NCBI GenBank assembly: GCA_016869215.1
Contig: VGEP01000002.1
Location: 1-64,000 of the forward strand
Direction: 5' to 3'
Length of the DNA stretch: 64,000 nt
From: Alphaproteobacteria bacterium
GTDB taxonomy: Bacteria > Pseudomonadota > Alphaproteobacteria > Rhizobiales > Xanthobacteraceae
Part shown: positions 57,012-63,091 of the stretch, piece after piece
How positions within the stretch are numbered: position 1 is the stretch's first letter
Layout: each line of letters begins with the position of its first letter
Notes under the pieces: model-generated
The model's input: only the letters and a program-made list of their open reading frames with translations
What the model was told of the DNA's origin: nothing
Databases searched by the model: none
Made by a program: the position numbers and the translations under genes

Positions 57012-58217
57012 TTACGCCGCATACACCGCCGGAACCGACGGCTCCTTGTTCCACTCCGCCACGGGATCGAAGCCCCAGACCCATTCCGAGTTGCCGTGGG
57101 CGCTGCCCTTGCCGGACGCGATCAGGTCCTTCTGCACCGCGGCGTCGCGCATGTGCTTGAAGCGGGCGTTGGACAGCGACAGCCGCTGCACGCCGTGCAC
57201 GCGCGGGATGCGCACCCTGCGGAAGTTGTCGAACGCTTCGGCCGGATCGGAGCAGGCTTGGAGCCAGCGCGACAGAATGTAGGCGTCCTCGAACGCCTGG
57301 CAGGCGCCCTGCCCCGCGTTCGGCAGCATGGCGTGCGCGGCGTCGCCGATCAGCTGGATGCGGCCGCGGCCCCAGTTACGCGTCAGCGGTCGCGTGAACA
57401 GGCCCCATTTCGAAACTTCGGTGACGAGGCTCATGAGCTTCGCCAGGCGCGGCTCGGGATTGGGAAAGCTCAGGCGCATCTCGTCGGGATCGCCGCGGGT
57501 CGACCAGCCCTCCTCGACCCACTTGTCGGTGTCCTCCTGGGTGACGATGTTCACCTGCCGGCCCCGGCGGATGTAATAGCCGATGAAGTGGCAGCCCGGC
57601 CCGACCCACTGGGTGTGGCCCATGGGCTCCAGCACGTCCTCCGGCACGTCAGCGGCATCGAGCAGCGCGCGCCAGACCATCTGGCCGGTGTAGGCCGGGT
57701 TGTCGTCGCCGTAGAGCGCCTGCCGGACGACCGAGCGGATGCCGTCGGCGGCGATCACGTATTCGGCTTCGATCTGCGCGCCGTTGGCGAACGCGAGTTC
57801 CACGCGGTCGCCCCGCTCCTCCAGCCCGGTCAGCCGATGTCCCAAGTGGACGGCGCCGAGATCGACCCCGCCGGCCAACGCATCCACCAGATCGGCGCGA
57901 TGGAAGGTGTAGTAGGGAGCGCCAAACCGCTCCGCAGCCTTGTGGCGGTCGTTGAATTCCAGGAACTCGCCGGTCTGCATGTTGCGCGTATAGATGCCGC
58001 GCGACAGGTGCCCGACGGCCGCGACCCGGTCGCCGGCGCCGATGGCGCGCAGCGCCTTGACCGCCTGCGGGCTGGCGTTGACCGCGGCGCCGATCTCGCC
58101 CAGCGCGGGGGCGGCTTCGAAGACCTGCGCCTCGATGCCGGCGCGCTTCAGCGCATTTGCGGCTGCGAGGCCGGCAAGCCCGCCGCCGACGATCGCGATC
58201 CTGGTGCCTGACGGCAT
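57012..58217 (-). CDS. FAD-dependent aromatic monooxygenase (salicylate-hydroxylase-like)
   Basis: The 401-residue flavoenzyme has the GXGXXG motif AIVGGGLAGLAAANALKRAG, the DG-type segment ADGIRSVVRQAL and GDAAHAMLPNAGQGACQAFEDAYIL. Together these are diagnostic of class A single-component hydroxylases acting on aromatic acids. ATG 58217 gives the standard N-terminus. A 24-bp site 38 bp upstream is shared with the Bug gene at 59163. The TetR gene is divergent. Substrates might include salicylate or 3/6-hydroxynicotinate-like compounds. Confidence 0.9.
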   Translation of the reverse strand: MPSGTRIAIVGGGLAGLAAANALKRAGIEAQVFEAAPALGEIGAAVNASPQAVKALRAIGAGDRVAAVGHLSRGIYTRNMQTGEFLEFNDRHKAAERFGAPYYTFHRADLVDALAGGVDLGAVHLGHRLTGLEERGDRVELAFANGAQIEAEYVIAADGIRSVVRQALYGDDNPAYTGQMVWRALLDAADVPEDVLEPMGHTQWVGPGCHFIGYYIRRGRQVNIVTQEDTDKWVEEGWSTRGDPDEMRLSFPNPEPRLAKLMSLVTEVSKWGLFTRPLTRNWGRGRIQLIGDAAHAMLPNAGQGACQAFEDAYILSRWLQACSDPAEAFDNFRRVRIPRVHGVQRLSLSNARFKHMRDAAVQKDLIASGKGSAHGNSEWVWGFDPVAEWNKEPSVPAVYAA

Positions 58218-58254
58218 TCGCCTGCCCTCGACCAACTTCACCCGTGCGCCGAAC

Positions 58255-58278
58255 CTAATTAAACAACCAGTTAACTGG
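58255..58278. promoter_or_regulatory. Putative TetR operator, site 1
   Basis: The sequence CTAATTAA-N6-AGTTAACTGG lies 38 bp upstream of the monooxygenase ATG and 67 bp before the TetR ATG. The same site in the opposite strand orientation occurs at 59101-59124, 39 bp before a Bug gene, with 19 of 24 identical positions. It contains the perfect dyad CCAGTTAACTGG. Confidence 0.7.
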
Positions 58279-58345
58279 CGCGCCGCGTTGCTGTCAACGG
58301 CATGCGGTCGTTGCTTTGCCGGGCCGCCGGGGGCATGGTTGCGCC

Positions 58346-59053
58346 ATGAAACGCCGCAAACGCGCGACGGCTCCGCAGAAGCGAAACGCCGACGCCACCC
58401 GAGCGAAGATTCTGCAAGCCGCACTCGATGAATTCAGCGAGCGCGGCCTGCCCGCCGCCAGCACCGACGACATCGCCGACCGCTGCGGCGTCAACAAGCG
58501 GATGATCTACTACTATTTCGGCAGCAAGGAGGGGCTCTATCTCGCCGCCCTGGAGTCGGTGTTCGAACGGTTCGTCGCGCTCGAACGGGAGATCGACGTC
58601 GAGCACCTGGAGCCCGCGGCCGCGATCGAGGCAATGATCGACCTCAAGATCGACTACTACGTCGAGAACCCGCACTTCGTGTCGTTTCTCGCGATGGAGA
58701 ACTTCTACAAGGCGCGGCACCTGCGCAAGTCGAAGAAGCTGCACATGTTCAAGACGCCGCTGACGGAGGTCATCGCGCGCATCCTGAAGCGCGGCCAGAG
58801 CAGCGGCCAATTCCGGCAGGACGTGGACCCGGTCGACTTCTACGTTTCCATGTGCGCGCTCTGCATCATGTATTTCTCCAACCAGCACAGCCTGGGCGCG
58901 ATCTTCCAGCGCGACATGATGTCCGGCGCCAACATCGAACGGCGCCGGCGCACGGTCGTCGACTTCGTGCTGAGCTATCTGCAGATGACGGACGGCGCGC
59001 GGACACCGGCGCCCGGACGCAAGCCCGCACGGCAGGCCGCGCTGGTGTCGTGA
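58346..59053 (+). CDS. TetR-family regulator of the monooxygenase/Bug genes
   Basis: The 235-residue protein has an N-terminal TetR DNA-binding domain (RAKILQAALDEFSERGLPAASTDDIADRCGVNKRMIYYYFGSKEGLYLAALE, residues about 18-68) and a helical ligand-binding domain. A basic C-terminal tail (GRKPARQAALVS) is unusual. It is divergent from the flavin monooxygenase, and the repeat of its probable operator at the next gene suggests that it controls both. The inducer is likely the aromatic substrate. Confidence 0.9.
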   Translation: MKRRKRATAPQKRNADATRAKILQAALDEFSERGLPAASTDDIADRCGVNKRMIYYYFGSKEGLYLAALESVFERFVALEREIDVEHLEPAAAIEAMIDLKIDYYVENPHFVSFLAMENFYKARHLRKSKKLHMFKTPLTEVIARILKRGQSSGQFRQDVDPVDFYVSMCALCIMYFSNQHSLGAIFQRDMMSGANIERRRRTVVDFVLSYLQMTDGARTPAPGRKPARQAALVS

Positions 59054-59100
59054 TCCGCCGCAGGCCGCGACAAGCCGGCCGTTGACAGCCGTTCCAGGCC

Positions 59101-59124
59101 CCAGTTAACTCCCCGGTTAATTAG
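59101..59124. promoter_or_regulatory. Putative TetR operator, site 2
   Basis: CCAGTTAACT-N6-TTAATTAG lies 39 bp upstream of the Bug gene start. It is the inverted copy of site 1, and both have the same orientation relative to their own gene. Confidence 0.7.
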
Positions 59125-59162
59125 AGGCGGAACGCGCCTCGCAAGCCTGTGGGGGAAACGCC

Positions 59163-60125
59163 ATGAAGCGGAGAATCGTCGCCATTCTGGTTGCGCTTCT
59201 TGCGTATCCGGTCGCACTCCATGCACAGACGTTTCCCGACCGGCCGGTCCGGCTGATCGTGCCGTCGCCCGCGGGCGGGCCGCCGGACGTCATGGCGCGG
59301 CTCCTGTCGGACAAGATGGCCGCCAATCTCGGGCAGCCCGTGATCGTGGAGAACCGTCCGGGCGCGGGCGGCACGATCGGAGCGCGGACGGTGCTCGGCA
59401 CCGCGCCCGACGGCTACACCATGCTGATGGGAAGCACGAGCACGCTGCTGATCGCGCCCGCGATCTACAAGAACGCCGGCTACCACGCCGGGTCGTTCGC
59501 GCCGATCGCGCGCGTCGCGGACAGCCGCGAGGTGCTCGCAGTCCATCCGTCGGTTCCCGCCAAGTCGGTGGCCGAGCTGGTGGCGCTGGCGAAGGCCAAG
59601 CCCGGCACGCTGAACTTTGCCTCTGCGGGGATCGGAACGCTGCCCCATATCGAGGGCGAGCTCCTCAAGGCGCGCGCCAGGATCGACATCAGCCATGTCC
59701 CCTATCGCGGCGGCGGACTGGCGCTTACGGGGCTGATGGGCGGCCAGGTCCACTTCATGTTTTCCACCCTGACCCAGATGCTGCCGAACATCCGCGAGGG
59801 CCGCGTGCGCGGACTGGCGGTGACGAGCGCCGACCGCAGCAAGCTCGCGCCGGAGATTCCGACCATGGTCGAGAGCGGGTTCGACAATTTCGTCGTGACG
59901 TCGATCTCGGCGGTGGTCGCGCCGCCGGGGACGCCGGCCGCGATCGCGTGGCGGCTCAATCAGGCCGTGGCTGCCGCGCTCAATTCGGAAGAGGTCCGGC
60001 AGGCGCTGGCGAAGATGGGCGGCGAAGCGCGCCAAGGCACGCCGGAAGACCTCGCTGCGTTCCTTTCCGTGGAACAGAAGCGCTGGGCCGAGATCATCAA
60101 GACCACGGGCGTTTCGCTCGAATAG
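59163..60125 (+). CDS. Bug-family periplasmic binding protein (TetR-controlled)
   Basis: The 320-residue exported protein has a signal peptide ending at ALHA-Q. The Bug signature FPDRPVRLIVPSPAGGPPDVMARLL and VENRPGAGGTIGA are present, with APDGYTMLMGSTST in the ligand loop. The shared operator with the monooxygenase suggests it captures the aromatic acid, or a related compound, for that enzyme. No TctAB genes are close; a membrane partner encoded elsewhere is expected. It is convergent with another Bug gene, separated by a bidirectional terminator. Confidence 0.9.
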   Translation: MKRRIVAILVALLAYPVALHAQTFPDRPVRLIVPSPAGGPPDVMARLLSDKMAANLGQPVIVENRPGAGGTIGARTVLGTAPDGYTMLMGSTSTLLIAPAIYKNAGYHAGSFAPIARVADSREVLAVHPSVPAKSVAELVALAKAKPGTLNFASAGIGTLPHIEGELLKARARIDISHVPYRGGGLALTGLMGGQVHFMFSTLTQMLPNIREGRVRGLAVTSADRSKLAPEIPTMVESGFDNFVVTSISAVVAPPGTPAAIAWRLNQAVAAALNSEEVRQALAKMGGEARQGTPEDLAAFLSVEQKRWAEIIKTTGVSLE

Positions 60126-60219: not shown

Positions 60220-61188
60220 TCAATCGATCTTGATGTTCGCGGCCTTGGCAACGGCGCGCCACTGCGCGAGGTCCTTCAGGATGAAGTCCCGGTAGGCGTC
60301 GCCGAGCTGAAGATCGGTCTGGTAGCCGAGCTTGGCCAGACGATCGAGCAAGTCCTTGTCCTTCATCATTGCAGAGATGCCCTGCTTGAGCTTGTTCAGG
60401 ACCGGCTCCGGCGTCTTCGCGGGCGCGCTCAGGCCATAACCGACGATCGTCGTCACGTTCAGCCCGAGTTCGCGCAGCGTCGGCACGTCGGGCAGCTGGT
60501 GGTAACGCTTGTCGCCGGTCACGGCGAGCACGCGGATCTTGCCCCCCTCCGCATGTGGCTTCGCCTGCGGCGGCGTCACCAGCGAGACGTCGACCGTGCC
60601 GGCGATCAGCGCGTTGGTCGCGGGGCCGAGGCCCGCGAACGGCACGTGGACCATGTTCATCCCGGCGGCCTGGTTCATCAGCACGATGCCGAGCTGCGGC
60701 GCGCTGCCGATGCCGGCGCTGCCGAAGTTCAGCTTGCCTGGATTGGCCTTGGCATAGGCGATCAGCTCCGCCAACGACTTCACCGGCACCTTGACGTTGA
60801 CCGACACGGCGAACGGCAGCTGCAGAACGCCCGCGATGAAAGCGAAGTCGTCCGGGATTTTGTACGGCACGGACGCCTTCACGGCCGGCAGGATCGACAG
60901 GCCGTCGGTGACGGTCCAGAGCAGCGTGTAGCCGTCGGGCGCCGACTTCGCGACCAGATCGGTGCCGAGCTGCGCCGCGGCGCCCGGCCGGTTCTCCACG
61001 AAGAACTGCTGGCCGAGGCGCTTGGTCAGCTCCGCGGCGATGACACGTCCGACCGTGTCGGTGCCGCCGCCGGCCGCAAATGGCACCAGCATCCGCACCG
61101 GCTTCGTCGGATAGTCCTGCGCCGCCGCGTGCTGAAGTCCAGCCGCCAGTCCGGTAACGGCCAGTGTGGCCAGAAGCAATTTTCGCAT
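60220..61188 (-). CDS. Bug-family periplasmic binding protein (MarR-associated)
   Basis: The 322-residue exported protein has the signal peptide MRKLLLATLAVTGLAAGLQHAAA. The Bug opening YPTKPVRMLVPFAAGGGTDTVGRVIA is followed by VENRPGAAAQLGTD and APDGYTLLWTVTD. A dyad 86 bp upstream matches the one before the LigB dioxygenase, so both are probably switched together. The ligand is likely a carboxylated aromatic. It is an orphan, as its membrane partners are absent from the window. Confidence 0.9.
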   Translation of the reverse strand: MRKLLLATLAVTGLAAGLQHAAAQDYPTKPVRMLVPFAAGGGTDTVGRVIAAELTKRLGQQFFVENRPGAAAQLGTDLVAKSAPDGYTLLWTVTDGLSILPAVKASVPYKIPDDFAFIAGVLQLPFAVSVNVKVPVKSLAELIAYAKANPGKLNFGSAGIGSAPQLGIVLMNQAAGMNMVHVPFAGLGPATNALIAGTVDVSLVTPPQAKPHAEGGKIRVLAVTGDKRYHQLPDVPTLRELGLNVTTIVGYGLSAPAKTPEPVLNKLKQGISAMMKDKDLLDRLAKLGYQTDLQLGDAYRDFILKDLAQWRAVAKAANIKID

Positions 61189-61273
61189 GACAGGTTCCTC
61201 CCGATTTCCGAGTTCTGCCGGCGGCTCGGACGCGGTGGAACGGCGGCCGCCCGGCGCCTGGGCTCGGCGGTAC

Positions 61274-61289
61274 AGTATGTTACGATACT
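61274..61289. promoter_or_regulatory. Putative MarR operator, site 1 (upstream of the Bug gene)
   Basis: The perfect dyad AGTAT-GTTACG-ATACT lies between the LigB gene and the Bug gene start. It shares 11 of 16 positions with the site at 62366-62381, including both outer boxes. Confidence 0.6.
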
Positions 61290-61323
61290 ATGGTGTCAAT
61301 GCGGGCGCCCGGCAGGCGGCCGC

Positions 61324-62310
61324 TCAGCGCCAGCTTGCAAAGCAGAGCCCGACGCCGGTCATGGCGCGCGAGCGGTACGCCGGCACGTAGGTGAGCCAGT
61401 CGAGCTTCAGGTCCGCCGCCGCTGCCGCAACCGCGATCCAGTTGCGGATTTCCGACGAGCCGGTGTGCAGCAGGCGCGGGGGCAAGGACTTCAGCGCCGC
61501 GTAATCGTTGTTGCGCAGCGCCGCCACGACCTTGCCGTCCAGGTCCTCGTTGACCAGAAAGTGGCTTAAGCCCCCGGACGCCATGACGCCGACGCGGAGG
61601 TCGTCCGGGAAGCTCGCGGCAAGATCGCGGATCGCGGCGCCCAATTCGAAGCAGCGCGCCGGGCTCGGCTGATTGGGCGGATAGTACGTGTTGAGGAACA
61701 CCGGCACGATCGGGATCGGCGGCTCGGCCATGTAGCGCCGGTGCACGAACGAATAGGCATGGCCCTCGAATTGGTCGCTCACCAATGCCTTGACGGCGGT
61801 GATGTCGAAGTTTCGATCCATCAATCCGGCGATGATGTGCGTCGCCAGCGCCGGATGACAGGGATAGAACCGGTCCTTGCCGTCCTCCATGCGCTTGCGC
61901 TGGTCGAGCAGATACCAGTCGGCGGCCGGCGCCGTGGGTGCGGCCGCGTTGCGGATCGTCTCGCCGTGATAGATCCCGATCGCCGGGCGGCAGGCGTCCT
62001 GGAAGATTTCCCGCTGATCGTCGCCGACGACGATCAGCACGTCGAGCCTGGCCGCCGCGAGATCGGCCTGAAGGCGGTCCATCGCGCCCCAGGTCGTCCG
62101 GTGCCGCTGCGCGATCGCCTCCTTGGAAATCTTGGCCGCCGCCGCGGGCGGCGTCGACTTCAGCAACTCGTCGAACGAGCGGGGTGTGCCTTCGAAATCG
62201 TTGATCGGCGCCTTGCAGTCGACGTGATCGAACAGCGCCTGCCAGTTCTCCACCGCCGAGAACAACATAGTGCTATGCGAGGTTCCGAATGCTGCTACAA
62301 TCCGCGCCAT
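61324..62310 (-). CDS. LigB-type (class III) extradiol ring-cleavage dioxygenase
   Basis: The 328-residue Fe(II)-dependent enzyme of the LigB superfamily opens a catechol-type ring. MARIVAAFGTSHST carries the first metal-site His, and VVGDDQREIF, SFVHRRY and SGGLSHFLVNEDLD supply further conserved His and acid residues. It lacks the alpha subunit of protocatechuate 4,5-dioxygenase, so it is a stand-alone type. The ATG at 62310 is followed in the opposite direction by a dyad and the MarR gene. Substrate class: protocatechuate, gallate or a substituted catechol. Confidence 0.88.
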   Translation of the reverse strand: MARIVAAFGTSHSTMLFSAVENWQALFDHVDCKAPINDFEGTPRSFDELLKSTPPAAAAKISKEAIAQRHRTTWGAMDRLQADLAAARLDVLIVVGDDQREIFQDACRPAIGIYHGETIRNAAAPTAPAADWYLLDQRKRMEDGKDRFYPCHPALATHIIAGLMDRNFDITAVKALVSDQFEGHAYSFVHRRYMAEPPIPIVPVFLNTYYPPNQPSPARCFELGAAIRDLAASFPDDLRVGVMASGGLSHFLVNEDLDGKVVAALRNNDYAALKSLPPRLLHTGSSEIRNWIAVAAAAADLKLDWLTYVPAYRSRAMTGVGLCFASWR

Positions 62311-62365
62311 CTATTCCCCCGACACGCCACTTTTGCCTGCGGCGAGAGCTTCGCGATCCGCCAAT

Positions 62366-62381
62366 TGGTATGGTTTCATAC
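62366..62381. promoter_or_regulatory. Putative MarR operator, site 2 (upstream of the LigB gene)
   Basis: The dyad GTATG-GTTT-CATAC, within GGTATGGTTTCATACT, is 56 bp upstream of the dioxygenase ATG and 207 bp from the MarR start. Confidence 0.6.
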
Positions 62382-62587
62382 TAAATGAGTCAAGCCGCGG
62401 CGTCGGGGGCAACGGCCCACGTGAAATCGCCACAGCGATTCGATTGGGCGGGGCTGCATTCCGCGGCGGCGCTCGCCTTCGGTTGCGCAGCCGTGCTATT
62501 GCGTTGCGGCCGCTCCCCATGGCTGCGGCGATGCGATGGCGGGCCGCCGGCGGCCACGGCCTGGAACCCGCGGCGGAATTGAACCCT

Positions 62588-63091
62588 ATGGCGCTACGAC
62601 GCGAAGCCACCCGAACCCTCAGGGCCGTCGACCGCAATGCGCAGACGACTTCCGACGACCCGGAATTCGCCGGCATGTCGCAAAGCCTGGGTTATCAGAT
62701 CCGCTACGCCTATCGCGCGTTCGTCAAGGCGCTCGCCGACGAACTCGGCATTCACCGGCTAACCACGAGCCAATGGTCGGCCTTGCGCGTGCTCTGGGAG
62801 ACCGAGGGCCTCAGCCAGGTCGAGTTGGCGCAGCGGATGATGGTCGAGAAGGCGTCGCTGACGTCGGTGCTGCAGGCAATGGAAAAGTCGGGCCTGATCC
62901 TGCGCACGCGCAACGCCGACGACCGCCGCAAGGTGAACGTCTTTCTCACCGCGGCGGGGCGAAAGCTCAGAGACAAGGTGCTGCCGCTCGGCGCCGGGAT
63001 CAACCGGCGCGCGGCGCGCGGCCTTTCGGCCGAGGAGGTGCGGCAGTTGCGCACGCTGCTGGCCAAGGTGATGAGAAACCTTCAGAGCTGA
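62588..63091 (+). CDS. MarR-family regulator
   Basis: The 167-residue protein has the MarR winged helix LTTSQWSALRVLWETEGLSQVELAQRMMVEKASLTSVLQAMEKSGLILRTRNADDRRKVNVFLT. The DDRR wing is typical, and a C-terminal dimerisation helix follows. The start at 62588 is the first ATG giving a family-like N-terminus; upstream frames are open, and an internal Met begins MSQSLGYQIRY. It is divergent from the LigB gene and probably represses it and the Bug gene, with the aromatic substrate as inducer. The 277-bp divergent region also contains low-complexity sequence without genes. Confidence 0.88.
   Translation: MALRREATRTLRAVDRNAQTTSDDPEFAGMSQSLGYQIRYAYRAFVKALADELGIHRLTTSQWSALRVLWETEGLSQVELAQRMMVEKASLTSVLQAMEKSGLILRTRNADDRRKVNVFLTAAGRKLRDKVLPLGAGINRRAARGLSAEEVRQLRTLLAKVMRNLQS

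Follow-up and report, generated by a model that had tools for sequence, protein, structure and literature searches.

A common 43-bp putative promoter-operator block on either side of a tetR gene, upstream of a flavin monooxygenase gene and an orphan Bug gene

Local repressors of the TetR/AcrR family, acting at a dyad that lies over divergent or neighbouring promoters, are the closest described systems. The regulator studied here resembles them in its TetR_N and TetR_C_29 domains, in a rare dyad beside its own gene and its neighbours, and in a predicted operator over a putative -10 element; it differs in scoring far under the cut-off of named equivalogs such as RutR, and in standing as a unit with its site beside different genes in two genomes. 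Nicotinate catabolism, with its local repressors NicR and NicS, offers a second comparison. Among solved structures the flavin-dependent monooxygenase (FMO) of this locus is closest to NicC, and in both cases a local repressor (here a predicted one) adjoins the oxidative FMO, whereas the present enzyme has Asn47 and Asn300 for NicC histidines. A ligand has been assigned to an orphan Bug protein by gene context in Bordetella, where Bug27 and Bug69 occur with nadC/nadQ, according to the accessible part of that report (PMC11452294). The Bug protein described here has Bug27 as one of its close solved relatives; in contrast, the regulator and partner enzyme are different, and the present protein is nearest to a terephthalate-binding protein. 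In the TTT expansion of Rhodoplanes sp. Z2-YC6860, 434 binding proteins, 70 of them with an adjoining transcription factor, were counted against 9 full transporters (PMC5994714, accessible in part). Our source genome is similar in its very many TctC and few TctA proteins (at least 150 versus 9), whereas neither the FMO-Bug pair nor the operator is described in the accessible text of that paper. Genomes of this group encode hundreds of Bug proteins with few membrane partners, most ligands being unknown according to the accessible parts of both sources (PMC5994714, PMC11452294). No published report of an FMO-TetR-Bug set or of the operator, including GTTAGTTA together with a TetR, was found in the search listings of the literature collection used.

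The window (the whole stretch of DNA that was analysed, 64,000 nucleotides) belongs to a genome of 5,150,839 bases (5.15 Mb) in 123 contigs. It encodes an FAD-dependent monooxygenase of 401 amino acids, similar to NicC and salicylate hydroxylase (57012..58217, minus strand), a TetR-family regulator of 235 amino acids (58346..59053, plus strand) and an orphan Bug/TctC solute-binding protein of 320 amino acids (59163..60125, plus strand). The FMO and Bug genes are divergent, with tetR between them. Two 24-bp sites of the form CCAGTTAACT-N6-TTAATTAG, which an earlier note had placed at 58255-58278 and 59101-59124 in the same orientation relative to the downstream gene, were confirmed by aligning the minus strand of the first with the plus strand of the second. 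They are identical at 19 of 24 positions, including all 18 outside N6, and their half-sites are imperfect. In gene direction the FMO site (58278-58255) reads CCAGTTAACTGGTTGTTTAATTAG and the Bug site (59101-59124) reads CCAGTTAACTCCCCGGTTAATTAG. The distances to the two ATGs, formerly given as 38 and 39 by counting to the A, correspond to 37 and 38 intervening bases.

A perfect TTGACA, within CCGTTGACAGC and absent from the earlier note, is located 17 bases upstream of the common TTAACT in both promoters; the common unit is therefore 43 bp long, TTGACA-N17-TTAACT-N6-TTAATTAG. Upstream of the FMO gene this block occupies 58255..58297 on the minus strand (TTGACA 58292-58297, 17-base spacer, TTAACT 58269-58274, N6, TTAATTAG 58255-58262), and upstream of the Bug gene 59082..59124 on the plus strand (TTGACA 59082-59087, 17-base spacer, TTAACT 59105-59110, N6, TTAATTAG 59117-59124), with the 24-bp dyad at its downstream end in each case. 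The simplest reading would be a -35 element, a spacer, a -10 element and an operator, the dyad lying over the -10 and the start. Since TTAACT matches TATAAT at three of six positions and a consensus promoter scan of 58200-59170 returned no promoter, the -10 assignment is based upon position and conservation. That the FMO-side site is a terminator hairpin was considered and rejected (1 terminator-like match versus 0.9 expected); judged from its letters, the Bug-side site has no such hairpin.

The earlier proposal that TetR controls the FMO and Bug genes jointly proved to be the best reading by computation, because the perfect site goes with TetR and because FMO and Bug form a conserved pair; its description of the site as a bare operator was abandoned, the left half appearing to be the -10 region. 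Our analysis argues that a local TetR switch probably represses both genes, and that the tetR-operator unit most likely came to stand between an established FMO-Bug pair.

Chance similarity of the two sites was rejected by shuffling. When the two 96-base upstream regions were subjected to 3000 mononucleotide shuffles, no 24-base match exceeded 18, a value reached 5 times, and with up to two mismatches allowed the dyad had 2 matches in the window versus 0 in 100 dinucleotide shuffles. A genome-wide search bore out that the dyad is particular to this locus: the only perfect CYARTTAA-N8-TTAAYTRG places were the two flanking tetR. The other 10 of 12 places in the genome had 3 mismatches each and are regarded as background, since the reversed control was commoner than the pattern (28 per strand versus 12, whole genome). 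No place between 0 and 3 mismatches was present in the whole genome, and a wider regulon with near-perfect sites was rejected on this ground. A looser core gave fewer matches than its reversed control in genomes G000, G003 and G012, the last two each having a single place with 2 mismatches. When the composite pattern TTGACA-N17-TTAACT-N6-TTAATTA was searched in 385 genomes of the class other than G003, 27 places with 1-2 mismatches were found in 24 genomes in addition to the two window sites, compared to 26 for the reversed control. Of these 27 loci 23 are more than half A+T, and none has a relative of TetR, FMO or Bug (tblastn, E 1e-4); they are background. One of them (L159, one mismatch) lies upstream of an ORF that resembles a binding protein.

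Among 296 genomes of the family the perfect dyad was identified in two, at two places here and at one in G003, making three perfect sites in all, in two genomes of one genus. This rarity bears upon the reading that the common block is a promoter type or a copied promoter, similar because of TTGACA and the -10-like element and involving no TetR binding. Twelve of the conserved bases do belong to TTGACA-N17-TTAACT, and both places need a promoter anyway; an ordinary promoter would, however, recur, whereas every perfect dyad in the 296 genomes accompanies this TetR or its ortholog, and conservation is just as strong for TTAATTAG, which follows the putative -10, in the three block promoters (two here and one in G003), whose intervening bases mostly differ. 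This explanation is considered unlikely.

The domains of the TetR protein were identified as an N-terminal TetR_N helix-turn-helix (PF00440, E 1.2e-17, residues 22-68) with NKRMIYYYF in the recognition-helix region, and a C-terminal ligand-binding domain (PF17938 TetR_C_29, E 1.5e-37, residues 90-208). The RutR equivalog cut-off of NCBIfam was missed by a wide distance (71.7 bits versus 368). Autoregulation is likely, as 67 bases separate the left dyad from tetR. The G+C content of tetR is 63.8%, versus 69.5% for FMO and 68.5% for Bug; the lower value fits a later arrival of tetR and is no proof of it. A perfect inverted repeat, CATGG-TTGCG-CCATG, spans the tetR start at 58334-58349, start codon included, and a tiny ORF (ATG GTT GCG CCA TGA) overlaps the same start; the letters of both are identical in G003. 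The repeat possibly folds into a hairpin at the start, or provides an additional site.

A search of 100 other relatives recovered one TetR ortholog, 79% identical, in G003, a genome assembled as one contig of 8,193,889 bases. In G003 the perfect dyad stands between the tetR ortholog and a Bug gene that diverges from it, within a 43-bp block of the same form and 65 bases before tetR compared to 67 here; the region running from the operator to the start of tetR can be aligned. The operator-linked Bug protein of G003 is 36% identical to that of the window, and the FMO-Bug pair of G003 lies about 0.9 Mb from its tetR, without a site. As the sole other family genome with a perfect dyad has it next to the TetR ortholog, upstream of another Bug gene, the site follows TetR. 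No second genome with the FMO-TetR-Bug order was found among the 100 relatives searched for TetR and FMO.

Because the FMO-side site can be aligned with the tetR-linked site of G003, the Bug-side site would, judged against one outgroup, be the extra one. The same observation favours the alternative that TetR acts on just one gene of the pair, or on its own gene plus a single neighbour, and that the remaining site is a vestige of duplication or of a tetR rearrangement; G003 works with a single site. Nevertheless, neither site of the window has lost any of the 18 defining positions or the 17-base spacing to TTGACA, although the intervening bases have diverged, as would be expected under selection, and control of only one gene is therefore judged quite improbable.

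The history of the unit was considered at the G003 locus, in which tetR, the block and the Bug gene lie between cofC and an epimerase gene, the Bug and epimerase genes belonging to a Bug-epimerase-M24 cluster. In the source genome the ortholog of this epimerase is encoded at C1:199199, directly behind cofD and cofC (read by eye), with neither tetR nor a Bug gene between cofC and the epimerase gene. A relative of the operator-linked Bug of G003 precedes the epimerase gene in G007 (78%) and G010 (65%), and no tetR relative was found nearby in the locus DNA examined. This pattern could be the trace expected of a movable tetR-operator unit; loss or rearrangement would look alike. At loci L171 (15-3823) and L068 (8346-13152), F420 biosynthesis genes (cofD and cofC, by eye) were observed beside the epimerase gene and an M24-peptidase-like gene, joined in G003 by the Bug gene. 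In addition to G003, six genomes of the genus have the epimerase, with 86-95% conservation.

More distant relatives of TetR were also surveyed. In 397 genomes of the order other than G003 one further relative was detected at E<=1e-56 (44% identical), and every match in 72,556 plasmid records was less than 60% identical. The tetR relative of G012 (51% identical) is followed by a relative of the epimerase gene of the G003 cluster, and TTGACA-N16-TTAACT-N10-TTAATTAG, with spacing 4 bp wider, was found before that gene. In 58 more distant relatives (443,950 bases; L007 and L008 excluded as motif sources) the core TTAACT-N6-TTARTTA was present within 250 bp of tetR in three, two Cloacimonadota loci and one spirochaete, and in 0, 1 and 0 of 300 dinucleotide shuffles of those regions. 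The Cloacimonadota loci, which probably represent one event, both have TTGACA again 17 bases upstream of TTAACT. In the spirochaete (L066) the 19-bp core lies just before the start of tetR itself (138-156), and a fully palindromic version, found on both strands and counted once, occurs at 1379-1397, 29 bases before the next downstream ORF; here too, and independently, a TetR gene and its neighbour have a predicted operator in common. Two Xanthobacter loci have one core each, about 1.8 kb from the tetR relative and in L051 between two divergent ORFs. The core was not found in the available DNA of the remaining 53 of 58 loci.

The sequence NKRMIYYYF occurs in 29 of these 58 loci, including all five with a core (P 0.026, the helix-bearing loci being mostly longer stretches and four of the five core loci forming two related pairs), and the recognition helix is weakly linked to the core. 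Presence of the helix is not enough to predict a site, as 24 of the 53 loci lacking the core have the helix in some frame.

The second line of evidence is the conservation of the FMO-Bug pair. FMO orthologs were identified in seven of the 10 other same-genus genomes at 79-83% identity, the next matches being at most 42%, and Bug orthologs in the same seven at 62-76%, giving eight of 11 genomes with both when the source genome is counted. In the three others (79-84% complete) no ortholog of either was found at those identities, the Bug search covering at most 150 candidates per genome. The two genes are adjacent in all eight genomes that have the FMO, in changing order: divergent in G008 and G010, convergent in G004, FMO then Bug in G003, and Bug then FMO in G001, G007 and G006, with about 0.9 kb separating them in G006. 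Beyond these two, no gene group was common to more than two of the FMO loci (38% identity over 60% of length, ORFs called by a codon-position rule). Chance adjacency to one Bug among at least 150 was rejected, the neighbour being the same ortholog in 8/8. The Bug ortholog of G007 (L114, 7495-8561) is split over two overlapping frames by a frameshift or an assembly error, and was left split. No site within 4 mismatches was found at the seven other FMO-Bug loci. As the pair persists without TetR in these seven genomes, TetR is not required for its function, and we infer that the pair is older than the TetR arrangement.

The FMO (FAD_binding_3, E 6e-28; nearest solved relatives 5eow, 8uiq and 8rqh) is closest among solved structures to 6-hydroxynicotinate 3-monooxygenase (NicC) and tropone 2-monooxygenase. 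Asn47 aligns to the active-site His47 of NicC, and Asn300 to another NicC histidine; 8uiq, a near-identical chain, has Gln at the position of His47. Identity as NicC was rejected because of these two replacements, and identity as 3-hydroxybenzoate 6-monooxygenase because of a score under the NCBIfam equivalog cut-off (231.7 bits versus 459); the enzyme is below the salicylate hydroxylase cut-offs too. The Bug protein (TctC, E 3e-70; PF03401 at 237.1 bits versus a curated cut-off of 27) has a terephthalate-binding protein as its closest solved relative, followed by Bug27. These relatives hint at an aromatic or pyridine carboxylate, and no more. With at least 150 TctC proteins (150 of 229 candidates scored) and 9 TctA in the source genome, and no TctA on contig C2, this Bug counts as an orphan by common usage; its surroundings do not encode a complete TTT transporter (TctABC).

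Downstream, a second Bug gene (60220-61188, minus strand), a LigB-type extradiol-dioxygenase-like gene (61324-62310, minus strand) and a MarR-family gene (within 62270-63091) may constitute a separate aromatic-catabolic unit (60220-63091). That another regulator binds the sites, for example this MarR-family protein encoded about 3 kb away (best NCBIfam match HpaR, 65 bits versus a cut-off of 121), is highly improbable, given that the perfect dyad accompanies the TetR ortholog at another locus and that related cores occur at tetR genes in other phyla.

Under joint control by TetR, a TetR dimer would bind one 24-bp dyad in each of the two outward-facing promoters flanking tetR. With the dyad over the putative -10 and the start, the bound repressor would exclude RNA polymerase from the FMO and Bug promoters, and an effector, probably the Bug ligand or a substrate or product of the FMO, would release it. 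Capture and oxidation of one compound are probably switched on together in this way. As to history, the FMO-Bug pair would have come first, and the tetR unit would have landed between both genes later in this lineage.

A broader proposal, put forward tentatively, is that TetR and its block form a plug-in unit set beside different Bug-linked catabolic genes (FMO/Bug here, the cofC-like gene and Bug-epimerase-M24 in G003), joining existing genes for an enzyme and a binding protein under one switch. The FMO-Bug pair might then be a substrate-specific capture-and-oxidise module, the compound of which could be found from the enzyme.

The system would be of a known kind, a local TetR repressor switch; its value lies in site evidence and gene-pair evidence, mutually independent, that assign one orphan Bug to one enzyme. 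A Bug protein kept beside one monooxygenase through repeated rearrangement, and sharing with it a predicted repressor site, provides a concrete ligand hypothesis drawn from the substrates of the enzyme. In addition, the core TTAACT-N6-TTARTTA may help to predict the targets of related TetR proteins.
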